Shown: positions 36,107-40,665 of the stretch, one piece after another | How positions within the stretch are numbered: the stretch's first letter is position 1 | Layout: every line of letters begins with the position of its first letter | Assembly (NCBI GenBank): GCA_021325035.1 | Contig: JAJPHW010000076.1 | Location: forward strand, 1 to 40,665 | Length of the DNA: 40,665 nucleotides | Reading direction: 5' to 3' | From: Terriglobia bacterium | GTDB taxonomy: Bacteria > Acidobacteriota > Terriglobia > Terriglobales > Acidobacteriaceae | Made by a program: the position numbers and the translations under genes | Notes under the pieces: generated by a model | What the model saw: the letters and a program-made list of their open reading frames with translations, nothing else | What the model was told of the DNA's origin: nothing | Databases searched by the model: none

Positions 36107-36391
36107 ATGAAAACAATTAAGTCTGTCGGAGTGCTGTCGGTAGCAAAAATCATGGGTGCAGTTTATGCAGTGCTCGGCTTATTGTTTGCCCCCATGTTCC
36201 TATTAATCGGCGCAGTCGGCTCAATGGCCGGGCAACATGCCAATCCGTTTGGAGCGATTGGCGGATTAGCCATGGCCGTAATCATGCCGTTCTTTTACGG
36301 TGTGCTGGGTTTCGTCTTTGGCGCTATCGGCGCGTTTCTCTACAACCTGATGGCCAAATGGATCGGCGGCATTGAATTTGAAGTCGCATAG
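36107..36391 (+). CDS. small two-helix membrane protein
   Basis: A 94-residue protein with two long Gly/Ala-rich hydrophobic segments (about 8-40 and 47-80) and a conserved-looking end (NLMAKWIGGIEFEV). Short proteins with this DUF3566-like layout occur in many bacteria, from memory. The ribosome binding site (GAGCGG) is weak. CTCGCTT (36061-36067) and AAGCGAG (36095-36101) upstream could pair over the ribosome binding site. Function unknown. The nuclease gene starts 50 bases after it on the same strand. Confidence 0.75.
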   Translation: MKTIKSVGVLSVAKIMGAVYAVLGLLFAPMFLLIGAVGSMAGQHANPFGAIGGLAMAVIMPFFYGVLGFVFGAIGAFLYNLMAKWIGGIEFEVA

Positions 36392-36430
36392 AAACGGGTG
36401 TGGCGCGGGCGCCTCGCTGGCGATTTCCCC

Positions 36431-36436
36431 TACAAT
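36431..36436 (+). promoter_or_regulatory. -10 box for a leaderless nuclease transcript
   Basis: TACAAT ends five bases before the ATG at 36442, so transcription would begin at about the start codon. No Shine-Dalgarno lies at a usable distance. No consensus -35 is visible. Confidence 0.4.
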
Positions 36437-36441
36437 GAGCC

Positions 36442-37827
36442 ATGCCGATTGTCAGGCCGCGCCTCACCGATTATTACGGCGTTCTGCTCTCTCAGGCCCA
36501 GGCCGACTTCGCCATCCCCTTTCTTGACGAAGACATCCCGCTCTATCTCGATCCCTTTTTACTCTGGCGCTCGCCCTCCCAGCAGGACAACTCACTCCAC
36601 ACCGCCATCCTCAACTCCTTCAACCATCTTGGCCTTCTGGAGAAGCAATCCCGCCACGCCGACGCCGTCCAAATCCTCATCGCCCTCACCGAGTGCGACG
36701 AAGTCGGCTTCGGTCACTCCCACACCCGCGAAGGCCGCCGCATCGGCTCCGCCACTGCCGAAGAAATTCTCGCGCTATTCCGCGCCGTCCCCGAGTACGA
36801 CCGCCGCGGCTTCCACCACTTCGAGGAAATCCAATTCTTCGTGGATCACATCTCCCGCGACCGCATCAGCGACATCGCCTGCAATCTCCTCAAATCGTTT
36901 CTCATCGACTACACCATTCACCAATGCCAGTCGCATAAAATTCCGTCCGAAAAAGTCACCATCCCCGAACTCTACAGCTACAAGAGCAACAAACTGGAAG
37001 CCGAGAAGGGAATCGCTCTTCCCATCAACCCCGAAACCAAAAAGCCCATCATTCTCGTTCCCAAGCGCTGGCTTCGTTTCAAACCCTGGCTCGATTACGA
37101 CGAGTACGTTGCCGATTATTTTCCGGGTGAAACAAACAAAGAAAGAAACAAAGCCAAAGCCAAGCCGGATCGCCCCACCATCCTCACTTTCAACCGCCAC
37201 AACTACGGCGCAGTGCAGGATTACGTCACGGCCAAAGAACGCACCGCCGACGATTGCAAGAACGACCCGCTCTTCAGCCAAATCCCCATCGCATCTGCAA
37301 AGAAGTCCCTCGAAGTCATCAAAGCCATCCCCTCCGGCGCAAAAGACGAAAACGACAAGAAGTACGAACGCGAACTCTCCCGCCTGCTTGCTTCAGCTTT
37401 CTATCCTCAACTCGATTTCGCCAAAACCCAGTCCCGCACCGAATCCGGCGTACTCATCCGCGATCTCATCTTTTACAACAACCGTTCCCACGAATTTCTC
37501 GCCGAAATATTCGACAAATACGATTGCCGCCAGATCGTCATGGAATTGAAGAACGTCACTGAACTCCATCGCGAGAACATCAATCAGCTCAATCGCTACA
37601 TGACCGACCAGTTTGGTAAGTTCGGCATCATCCTCACTCGCCGCATGCCCTTGCCGCGCGTCTTCCGCAATACAGTCGACCTCTGGTCCGGCCAGCGCCG
37701 CTGCATCTTCATCCTCGACGACTTCGACCTCGAACAGATCGTCACTCTCTACGAATCCAAACAGCGTGACCCGCTGGACTTACTCAAGAAGAAATATGTA
37801 GAGTTCTTAAGAGCCTGTCCGAGCTGA
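36442..37827 (+). CDS. PD-(D/E)xK nuclease-like protein, putative defence gene
   Basis: A 461-residue protein without signal peptide or membrane helices. The N-terminal three quarters are helical and charged (FLDEDIPLYLDPFLLWRSPSQQDNS, and an EKGIALPINPETKKPI segment). The C-terminal region resembles a restriction-endonuclease fold. Asp341 in VLIRDLIFYNN is followed after 26 residues by Glu368 and Lys370 in IVMELKNV, a D-x26-ExK spacing typical of PD-(D/E)xK enzymes. A helix with Gln (NINQLNRYM) follows, as in that fold. Third positions are unusually C-rich compared with neighbours, hinting at separate origin. It is coupled to a small unknown gene and faces an OLD nuclease, fitting a defence islet. 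Family not named by me. Confidence 0.75.
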   Translation: MPIVRPRLTDYYGVLLSQAQADFAIPFLDEDIPLYLDPFLLWRSPSQQDNSLHTAILNSFNHLGLLEKQSRHADAVQILIALTECDEVGFGHSHTREGRRIGSATAEEILALFRAVPEYDRRGFHHFEEIQFFVDHISRDRISDIACNLLKSFLIDYTIHQCQSHKIPSEKVTIPELYSYKSNKLEAEKGIALPINPETKKPIILVPKRWLRFKPWLDYDEYVADYFPGETNKERNKAKAKPDRPTILTFNRHNYGAVQDYVTAKERTADDCKNDPLFSQIPIASAKKSLEVIKAIPSGAKDENDKKYERELSRLLASAFYPQLDFAKTQSRTESGVLIRDLIFYNNRSHEFLAEIFDKYDCRQIVMELKNVTELHRENINQLNRYMTDQFGKFGIILTRRMPLPRVFRNTVDLWSGQRRCIFILDDFDLEQIVTLYESKQRDPLDLLKKKYVEFLRACPS

Positions 37828-37834
37828 GGTGTAA

Positions 37835-38224
37835 ATGGACAAGAAAGAAGACGCTTACGAATTTGAAAAGCTGGAGCAACAGCTCCACTCATTCCTCACT
37901 GAAATTTCCGAGCTTTCCTCGAAAAAACCCAATGACCCGCTAAACAAGTTCAAATTGAAATTCATCAATGGGATGTTGGAAGGTCTGAACAAGCTTCTCG
38001 GCAACGCCCGTCCATTCAGAGATTTCAAAGTATTCGATGTGGATGACCTTCCAAGCAACAGCGACGTCATCCTTATGTTGTCGCAATATACAGCCGCCGT
38101 ATTTCAGTTTCGTAAGGAAAACACACGAAGAAACGACCTCGACGGCAAATGGCATTGGAAAATCAACGGACGTAAGTCCGTGGAAACCGACAATCCAGAG
38201 CATTTCAAATACCGTACCAAGTGA
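37835..38224 (+). CDS. small protein coupled to the nuclease gene, unknown
   Basis: A 129-residue soluble, largely helical protein. The first helix is acidic and coiled-coil-like (EKLEQQLHSFLTEISELSSKK). A central FKVFDVDDLPSNSDVILMLSQYTAAVFQF segment reads as the most conserved-looking part. A basic, aromatic tail (KWHWKINGRKSVET) ends it. The start codon is seven bases after the nuclease stop and GAGGT overlaps that stop, so the two are translated together. It could be a partner, inhibitor or sensor for the nuclease. Base composition is more A/T-rich than in the nuclease gene. No family recognised. Confidence 0.7.
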   Translation: MDKKEDAYEFEKLEQQLHSFLTEISELSSKKPNDPLNKFKLKFINGMLEGLNKLLGNARPFRDFKVFDVDDLPSNSDVILMLSQYTAAVFQFRKENTRRNDLDGKWHWKINGRKSVETDNPEHFKYRTK

Positions 38225-38240
38225 AAGCGGCAGCCTTGAC

Positions 38241-40307
38241 CTAAAGCAAAGCGTTTAGTGCTTTGAAGCTGGCCTCGAACCGTTCGAGCGTAGACTCGTC
38301 CAGCCTCCCAGCCAGCTTGCCGATGTTTCCGGCGAAGTAGCGTGCTGGGCGGTAGTGGTTGAAACCACCTGATCGCAGCGGATTGATCTTCATCCAACCC
38401 TCAATGTTGACCAATATCCGCGGGTGCTTCCCAAGGTCCTTCAGTTCGATCTTTTTTACCAGCTCGTTTTTATATTCTTCGTTTACGAGGTCTAGGTAAA
38501 ACTGCGGGTCAAACATGTCCTCGATGTCTGCCTCGCCCTTACCCACATACTCTGCGAACGTATGAACATTCTTCTTAGAGAGCAGCTTCTTTTTGTAAAG
38601 ATTTTCGATCGTCTGTTGATCTTTCTTTTGGAAGTCAATCAGCGTGGCAACCTTTAGCTTCTTCTGCGATCCCAAAAGCGCAACGAATGTGGGGATTTTG
38701 TCCGAGCCTCCGACAGGCGTAATGGTCCAGGCCGGCGAAAGCGATTCTCGACCAGCCGCCGACAGAACGCCCCCGACCGTCGGCAGGTAGAGCAGGTCGG
38801 ATACACCCTCGACGATCAAACTGTTGGGTCCTATGAACAACGTCTGGGCAATGTCATAACCGAGCGCGCCCTGCAGCGGAAACAGCGAGTCGGGATCGGC
38901 ATCCAAAATATCTGTCAAAACCTTTGTGCCCCGTTCCTCCCGCGGCAGCGGGTCGTCCTGCTCCATGCTGCGGTCGCGGACGATGCGCACCCGGTCGAAG
39001 TTATTAGCATCGACCATGAAGGGCGAGTGTGTCGTATAGAGCACTTGGTGATGAGGCTTCAGTTCCTTCTCGATGTACGCGAGCAGGTCAGCTTGTGCGC
39101 TGGCATGCAGCACGAGGCCCGGCTCGTCCAGTAGGAGAATCATTGGTTTGCTAGATTTTTTCTGCTGAGAGAACCATGCAAGGAACGAGAAAAACCAAAC
39201 AAAACCACGGGAGCGCGTACCCAGCGGTACGGTAGCACCATGCGCTGAATCATAAACCTCACCCCACAGGTTCGTGGTCCCCTGCATGTTCATTCCTTCC
39301 GGGTCACCCGAGAGAGCAGGCCGAACGTCGAACTGGACATGGAGGTGCTTATTTTGAGACCAATACTGGAGAATCTTGCCTGAAAGGTGATTCGAGGTGC
39401 CCTGAAGTTTATTCTTCAGGAACTGGGTATTTGTGGGCTTGATTAGCTGGTCTAAGTTCAGTCGCGCCAGCTCAATCAATCCGAGCATCGGGCGATCGGA
39501 AGGTTCCAGCTTTCCACTCGTCTGCCGTTCCTTAAGTTTCTCTACGTTTAGCTGCCCGGTCATTTGGTAATACTCGTCAAAGTACAGGAAGCGTGGAAAA
39601 TGGCTCTTAAGGTGGGCGCGCCATATGTGCAGACCCAAGGTCGTTTCGATGACAGGCGCAATCTTGGCGCGAAGGGCCTTGGCCGCCTGTGATTCCTGCA
39701 GGCGGTTAGCCGCGTCGACGGCGGCAGGTCTCTCCGTTGGTTCTGGGATTGCGTTCGCCGCAGCAATGGCAGCGTTATATGCCTTCTGGCGCTTTTCGGA
39801 ATCCTGATTAAGGTAAGTCAGTAGATCGTTGAAATTCTGTTGCTTAAGGGCCTCGACCTTGACATCGTCCGGTAGGCCTGCGGATTCAACCCAAGCCCTC
39901 ACACCTGCAGCATCGTTCGTTTTCACAGTGACGTAATAGGTATCCGTATATCCTCGGCTCAGGACTATGTCTTCGGTCGCGAAAACATCCTTGCCGAAAT
40001 CGTCCCTAGCCGATTGCATTTCCTCGTCATTGAGCGTGAACGTAGCCGACACGACGGCGGTTTGCGGTCCCCGACGGCCAGCGTCAACGTCTTGCTCGTA
40101 ATCCTCAACCTCAAGCTTTGGATAGTCGAGCGTGACGTTGAAGTGGGCGTCGGATTCAATGATCGGGTTGAGTCGATATAGGGCTTGAAGGATGGCAGTC
40201 TTACCGGCTTCGTTCTTGCCAACCAAGCACGTCACATCGCCGACCTGGAACTCATTGGAGTCCCAAACTGACCTAAACTCTCGTATTTGTACCGATTTCA
40301 GCCGCAT
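38241..40307 (-). CDS. OLD-family ATP-dependent nuclease (ABC ATPase plus TOPRIM)
   Basis: A 688-residue OLD-type protein. The SMC/RecF-like N-terminus is RLKSVQIREFRSVWDS and Walker A is GKNEAGKT (30-37). A long helical and mixed insert follows, then the ABC-signature region and Walker B MILLLDEPGLVLH, with the His-switch-like YTTHSPFMVD. The TOPRIM domain has Glu500 in LIVEGVSD and Asp558 in ATLIDFQ. This is the class 1 OLD layout. No UvrD-like helicase (GajB or class 2 partner) is adjacent. The ATG at 40307 has a GGGAGGG site upstream; a frame reaching 40409 runs through the groEL terminator and is rejected. OLD nucleases act in phage defence; the partner here may be the opposing gene pair. 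Confidence 0.9.
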   Translation of the reverse strand: MRLKSVQIREFRSVWDSNEFQVGDVTCLVGKNEAGKTAILQALYRLNPIIESDAHFNVTLDYPKLEVEDYEQDVDAGRRGPQTAVVSATFTLNDEEMQSARDDFGKDVFATEDIVLSRGYTDTYYVTVKTNDAAGVRAWVESAGLPDDVKVEALKQQNFNDLLTYLNQDSEKRQKAYNAAIAAANAIPEPTERPAAVDAANRLQESQAAKALRAKIAPVIETTLGLHIWRAHLKSHFPRFLYFDEYYQMTGQLNVEKLKERQTSGKLEPSDRPMLGLIELARLNLDQLIKPTNTQFLKNKLQGTSNHLSGKILQYWSQNKHLHVQFDVRPALSGDPEGMNMQGTTNLWGEVYDSAHGATVPLGTRSRGFVWFFSFLAWFSQQKKSSKPMILLLDEPGLVLHASAQADLLAYIEKELKPHHQVLYTTHSPFMVDANNFDRVRIVRDRSMEQDDPLPREERGTKVLTDILDADPDSLFPLQGALGYDIAQTLFIGPNSLIVEGVSDLLYLPTVGGVLSAAGRESLSPAWTITPVGGSDKIPTFVALLGSQKKLKVATLIDFQKKDQQTIENLYKKKLLSKKNVHTFAEYVGKGEADIEDMFDPQFYLDLVNEEYKNELVKKIELKDLGKHPRILVNIEGWMKINPLRSGGFNHYRPARYFAGNIGKLAGRLDESTLERFEASFKALNALL

Positions 40308-40405: not shown

Positions 40406-40437
40406 CCAATAGTCTTACCTTGCGGTATGACTATTGG
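40406..40437. repeat. long hairpin after groEL
   Basis: CCAATAGTC-T-TACC-TTGC-GGTA-T-GACTATTGG is an inverted repeat of 9 plus 4 base pairs with one T-T mismatch and a TTGC loop. It lies 27 bases after the groEL stop. No T run follows on either strand, so it is not a standard terminator. Confidence 0.6.
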
Positions 40438-40464: not shown

Positions 40465-40665
40465 TTAGTACATGCCTTCCATACCGCCGCCGTGGCCGCC
40501 GCCCATCGGAGCTGCTTTCTTCTCCTCAGGGATTTCCGCGACCAGCGCTTCGGTGGTCAGCATCAAGGACGCAATCGAACCGGCATTCTGCAGCGCGGTG
40601 CGCACGACCTTGGTGGGATCGAGCACGCCGGCCTTGACCAGGTCTTCGTACTCGTTGCTGAAGGC
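40465..40665 (-). CDS. groEL: chaperonin GroEL, C-terminal fragment
   Basis: The last 66 residues of GroEL run off the window edge. Readable are [35 protein letters not shown] and the typical end, EIPEEKK followed by a Gly/Met-rich tail [13 protein letters not shown]. The DPTKVVR and NAGSIASL segments belong to the equatorial domain of the 60-kDa chaperonin. It is truncated only by the window, not broken. The histidine in the GGM tail is a minor variant. Two hairpins lie downstream. Confidence 0.97.

Follow-up and report, generated by a model that had tools for sequence, protein, structure and literature searches.

Closest described systems

The systems that most resemble the gene group discussed here are Shedu (SduA), which is a stand-alone PD-(D/E)xK defence nuclease without a methylase, the restriction enzymes FokI and R.BspD6I, the class 1 OLD proteins, and Gabija (GajA-GajB). 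The group, hereafter the islet, lies towards the end of a 40,665-nucleotide contig of a Terriglobia soil bacterium (Acidobacteriota), the whole of which we call the window, and comprises a 461-amino-acid (aa) nuclease gene (A), a small coupled gene (B) and a convergent OLD gene. Our analysis suggests that the islet probably represents two independent anti-mobile-element modules beside groEL, in which A-B would be a partner-controlled DNA nuclease and OLD would work without A-B. A and B correspond to PDC-M36, an entry of the PADLOC collection; PDCs are candidate defence systems nominated by 'guilt-by-embedding' and mostly untested, according to PMC12988326 (with reference to Payne et al., 2024, doi 10.1101/2024.01.29.577857).

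Both genes match their PDC-M36 models end to end, A at 733.6 bits (PDLC04597, residues 1-461 on model positions 1-457 of 457) and B at 130.4 bits (PDLC04599). The preliminary description of this DNA had found no named family for A, which stands for Pfam and NCBIfam, where A receives a PDDEXK_3 match below threshold and B has no credible one; PADLOC-DB, however, lists the two as PDC-M36A and PDC-M36B. PADLOC holds two PDC-M36B models, fitting B and its paralogue B', and the window copy has one B gene whereas nine of eleven loci have both B and B'. PDC-M36 was thus already catalogued as a candidate; what we add is support for its nuclease core, an obligate partner and an independent OLD neighbour, and the newest element is an unclassified N-terminal domain common to a larger nuclease family. 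Among the many catalogued but untested candidates, this one thereby acquires a described anatomy, with its catalytic residues, its obligate partner and the third gene that it lacks. It is a mobile unit whose left boundary is defined, and its two-gene acidobacterial form offers a natural test of the contribution of B'.

A is similar to FokI and R.BspD6I in its C-terminal nuclease domain (Z-score 11.1-11.6 over ~150 residues) but unlike them in its N-terminal domain; moreover, it has no methyltransferase partner, and sequence identity is ~10%. The nuclease domains of A and Shedu also align (Z 8.2), yet Shedu belongs to another nuclease lineage with another N-terminal domain, and it is one gene where A-B is a pair or trio. 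The OLD gene of the window is, like P2 Old, T. scotoductus OLD and E. coli OldB/YbjD, a single-gene ABC ATPase with a probable TOPRIM domain. It shares the predicted OLD-type ATPase/TOPRIM with Gabija but lacks an adjacent UvrD-like GajB, and GajA models score well below PADLOC Old; we rejected a Gabija identity, as there is no GajB and the neighbours are B and groEL.

Gene A and its small partner

Judging from conserved catalytic residues and from the core fold in a structure model, the C-terminus of A is a PD-(D/E)xK nuclease domain, as proposed earlier. It carries D341-x26-E368-x-K370 (codons 37462-37464, 37543-37545 and 37549-37551), and G336, D341, E368, K370, N371 and Q382 are invariant across nine relatives with identity down to 22%. 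In an AlphaFold2 model, for which the window protein was aligned with ten further proteins (from L001, L002, L148-L152 and L154-L156; L numbers denote loci), the nuclease core (residues ~282-461) aligned with the small subunit of R.BspD6I at Z 11.6 (root-mean-square deviation 3.3, 152 residues aligned) and with FokI at Z 11.1 (3.2, 153 residues), followed by AspBHI (9.2), EcoT38I (8.9), Shedu (8.2), MspJI (8.2) and Avs4 (7.7). The conservation of the motif in these nine relatives, together with the structural match to the cleavage domains of restriction enzymes, shows that it is not a chance occurrence. RPB5 ranked top for A in Foldseek (E 0.0026, template-modelling score 0.31); on alignment its Z of 7.5 fell below the 11.6 of the restriction enzymes, and we read this match as a shared core arrangement. 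From comparison with the L001 copy (nonsynonymous divergence dN 0.13, synonymous divergence dS 0.82), A is under purifying selection. Elsewhere, the nuclease domain of A is found fused to an Mrr domain (L009 967-2010) and, in L008 (1417-2913), joined to a large N-terminal part that is unclassified.

The coding end of A is readable in eleven loci (window, L001, L002, L013, L014, L030, L148-L151 and L159), and B stands after A in all of them, with its reading disturbed near the start in L151; the co-occurrence of the two genes across genomes, proposed earlier as a check, is thereby borne out. Translation of A and B is coupled in most loci, and in a plasmid collection of 72,556 records those that hold B and B' are the same three that have a full-length A. 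On this sequence evidence, we regard A and B as one unit. The model of B (mean predicted local distance difference test score, pLDDT, 92.8) consists of three helices and a beta hairpin and gave no convincing fold match. A relationship to the proteasome activator Bpa was considered and rejected, since the match (Foldseek E 0.19, Z 6.7, a helical bundle) is at the level of unrelated helical proteins.

B' follows B in 9 of the 11 loci and is missing from both acidobacterial copies (window and L001); the whole source genome holds only one M36B gene, and no B' was found in the genomes of the acidobacterial B genes. In a tree, B and B' make two clades (100/99 support), with the acidobacterial B genes inside the B clade, hence the duplication predates the spread of the unit. 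The position of A in a tree with an unsure root suggests that B' may have been lost from the acidobacterial form, rather than never having been present in it.

The N-terminal domain of A matches no Pfam family; it does match phrog_27295 (E 7e-33) and phrog_30194, two phage families of unknown function. The domain is common to a wider family at 17-25% identity, with different C-terminal nucleases, and the members of that family end in another PD-(D/E)xK type, GxGPVDFKxSxG...VExKLS...Q (motif read by eye). This wider set of nucleases, some of them near restriction-modification (R-M) genes and genes of the cyclic-oligonucleotide-based anti-phage signalling system (CBASS), falls outside Pfam and NCBIfam. 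We tentatively raise the possibility that A belongs to a large unclassified family of defence nucleases combining a common N-terminal regulator (D-x2-L-x2-D-P, later D-x3-D) with varied PD-(D/E)xK cutters and partners; A-B-B' would be a branch of three parts whose nuclease is gated by a pair of small helical proteins. To our knowledge, such gating by paired small helical proteins is described for no defence system. Contig C152 of the source genome (G000; L004 631-2049) also encodes a 472-aa nuclease with this N-terminal domain and the other C-terminal type, immediately preceded on its strand by a gene of 234 aa. At L058 (2543-6335), a distant A overlaps by 4 bases an unknown 269-aa gene, a different partner within the same wider family, and adjoins a CBASS cyclase and a SLATT_4 effector.

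A rare, mobile unit and its OLD neighbour

Full-length A was found in 1 of 396 Acidobacteriota genomes and B in 1 of 392, in both cases the source genome; the Terriglobia metagenome-assembled genome behind L001 is a further A-B carrier, found by another route than the Acidobacteriota draw. Hosts of A-B comprise plasmids, prophages and chromosomes across several phyla. In L002, A-B-B' has an integrase and genes resembling relaxases as neighbours (read by eye). It lies on plasmids in L013 and L014, and occurs in viral contigs, next to an integrase in L148 and amid further phage-like genes in L151. An alignment scan of viral contigs returned four close A genes and a single-protein scan none; A was not found in INPHARED phage records, and an E. 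coli collection held no near DNA match to it. In the relative G991, the DUF3566 gene and groEL lie ~200 bp apart with no islet between them, which represents the empty site. The low counts of A and B together with this empty site rule out a core, vertically inherited pair, and the nuclease fold is present in the model; neither of the outcomes named in the preliminary description as speaking against a defence islet thus arose. Our results support the view that the islet is accessory and defence-associated, and not part of the core gene set.

Among the close A genes, that of L150 neighbours a complete type II R-M system, a BpuJI-like enzyme with two 5-methylcytosine methylases, while others lie near an Mrr enzyme (L149), the CAP12-type TIR gene of L001 or an AbiD-like protein (L014). 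A PaeR7I R-M system adjoins a broken A in L015, and distant A genes stand beside a CBASS cyclase with a SLATT effector (L058) or a type I specificity gene (L006). No methyltransferase is adjacent in the window or within the A-B-B' cassette of relatives, and the L150 methylases flank their own BpuJI-like enzyme. In L013 (6163-8001, plasmid of a cyanobacterium) and L014 (6928-7998, plasmid of an alphaproteobacterium), A-B-B' is located directly downstream of UmuC-type polymerase genes, and the L013 umuC appears split into two annotated genes.

The OLD gene scores 76.6 bits with Pfam AAA_15, 86 bits with PADLOC Old and 17.0 bits with OLD-like_TOPRIM, the last under the cut-off of 23.2. Across six relatives, the Walker A (GKNEAGKT) and Walker B (LLLDEPG) motifs are invariant or nearly so, and the TOPRIM acidic residues E500, D504, D558, E596 and D597 are invariant. 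The usual TOPRIM motif, DxD, has a second Asp; in the window gene, unlike in class 1 OLD proteins, this residue is Gln, and it varies among relatives. The second Asp is likewise absent from most of these (D-F-Q, D-I-Q, D-V-A, D-I-A and D-Q-A occur), D-D-D being seen only in L176.

In the explanation that we consider probable, the FokI/BspD6I-like domain of A would cut nucleic acid, presumably DNA, and its N-terminal domain would sense or position. B, produced from the same message as A and paired with B' in most other hosts, would bind A and control when or where it cuts, restricting cutting to invasion by phages or plasmids. Since the A-B unit contains neither a methyltransferase nor an ATPase, host DNA would be guarded either by the control that B exerts or by target recognition. 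OLD, a lone ATPase/TOPRIM nuclease of class 1, would be a second module acting without A-B. We infer the defence phenotype of A-B, its trigger and target, and the role of B. Several points weigh against this explanation: searches of the literature by name returned no paper on the function or mechanism of PDC-M36, and the defence neighbours were recorded per locus without a background rate. In addition, the model of A has a moderate mean pLDDT of 66.6, with residues 212-280 and 325-341 below 50, although the bulk of the C-terminal part, apart from residues 325-341, has a confidence near 80.

Other roles for A-B have to be weighed. A might be a modification-dependent (type IV-like) restriction enzyme whose N-terminal domain reads modified phage bases while the PD-(D/E)xK domain cuts, which would spare the host a methylase, with B and B' as specificity or assembly subunits; the lack of a methyltransferase gene in the unit and the alignments with the modification-dependent AspBHI and MspJI would fit, but FokI and BspD6I, neither of them modification-dependent, gave higher Z-scores, and among Pfam reader families the N-terminal domain has no match, so that we regard this role as rather unlikely. 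A toxin-antitoxin-like pair, in which B restrains a toxic nuclease A and which mainly stabilises a mobile element or aborts infection, seems to us unlikely as well. Strict A-B linkage with coupled translation in most loci would fit such a pair, as would the fact that A breaks off ahead of its nuclease domain in L015 and L077, the two loci in which no B can be read; however, these broken cases number only two, two paralogous partners would be unusual, and B resembles no known antitoxin fold. Instead of defence, A-B might serve DNA repair or the SOS response as an accessory module, given that on two plasmids of different phyla a UmuC-type polymerase gene precedes A at a distance of 41 or 154 bp. 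We consider this improbable, as UmuC was not seen in the other loci, whose neighbours are restriction, TIR, Mrr and CBASS genes, and the distribution of A-B is rare and mobile.

Finally, A, B and OLD might constitute one three-component system, as could be indicated by their side-by-side position and by the convergence of B and OLD, whose stop codons are separated by 16 bases. Earlier, one system and two neighbouring ones had been left as alternatives, and a linkage of A-B with OLD had been envisaged. The linkage failed: complete searches of two further chromosomal A-B genomes, G396 and G397, found no OLD; in L001, the closest A-B relative, where A-B runs in the same order towards groEL, a CAP12-type TIR gene takes the place of OLD; and no other A-B locus read has an OLD gene beside A-B. 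Furthermore, 88 plasmid records hold relatives of OLD, which stood alone in each of the five that were inspected. A single system is therefore highly improbable and we rejected it, which leaves two neighbouring modules. Class 1 OLD proteins are defined by isolated context (PMC10568477; PMC13261556). The window gene has B and groEL as neighbours and neither a helicase nor a reverse transcriptase as partner; it is a lone class 1 OLD, a neighbouring module separate from A-B.

Layout of the islet and its flanks

The features are collected in the table below. The genes and coordinates of the preliminary description, the catalytic motif, the ribosome-binding site of B over the stop of A and the short convergent gap were all verified, as was the position of the islet between a small membrane protein gene, DUF3566-like, and groEL.

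Table. Positions of the islet genes, their domains and motifs, and the flanking genes in the window.
Feature	Position	Strand	Evidence	Remark
Small membrane protein, DUF3566-like	36107..36391	+	Pfam PF12089, 22.8 bits	Left flank of islet
TACAAT, -10-like box	36431..36436	+	5 bases 5' of gene A ATG	Candidate leaderless transcript start
Gene A, PDC-M36A, 461-aa nuclease	36442..37827	+	PADLOC PDLC04597	
N-terminal domain of A, residues ~25-215	36514..37086	+	Conserved D31, L34, D37-P38, E84, G91, G98, D140, D144, P194, P207	
C-terminal PD-(D/E)xK domain of A, residues 285-461	37294..37824	+	AlphaFold2 model, VIA-align Z	
Catalytic residues D341, E368, K370 of A	37462..37551	+	Invariant in 9-member alignment	
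Q382 of A	37585..37587	+	Invariant in 9-member alignment	
Shine-Dalgarno sequence GAGGTG of B	37826..37831	+	Sequence	Overlaps A stop TGA (37825-37827)
Gene B, PDC-M36B, 129 aa	37835..38224	+	PADLOC PDLC04599	ATG at 37835
Class 1 OLD, ABC ATPase + probable TOPRIM, 688 aa from ATG	38241..40307	-	Pfam AAA_15, PADLOC Old	
OLD Walker A, GKNEAGKT	40197..40220	-	Alignment of six relatives	
groEL 3' end	40465..40665	-	91% identical to L001 GroEL	Right flank; window stops within gene

The DNA homology that the window shares with L001 sets in at 36429, with a TAnAAT box whose distance from the start codon of A is 5 bases; here the window reads TACAATGAGCCATG and L001 reads TAGAATGAACCATG. Because the similarity begins at the box, the box travels with gene A. 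The start of A has no evident Shine-Dalgarno sequence in the window or in L001, and, given this and the box 5 bases from the ATG, it is plausible that the message of A is leaderless. The gap from A to B is 7 bases. A longer open reading frame of the OLD gene, with a TTG start, begins at 40409.

Base composition differs gene by gene, as described before: A has a GC content at third codon positions of 0.725 and a coding-strand GC skew of -0.30 (C-rich), versus ~0 in most long open reading frames of the window, while GC is 0.446 in the AT-richer B and 0.534 in OLD. Gene content directly downstream of groEL varies among 20 relatives. Turnover at this site is high: within Terriglobia (window, L001, L082, L128 and L145), the 3' flank of groEL holds OLD, TIR or a possible Vsr/cytosine methylase, or is empty; in L145, a cytosine methylase and a Vsr-like nuclease (read by eye) lie downstream of groEL.

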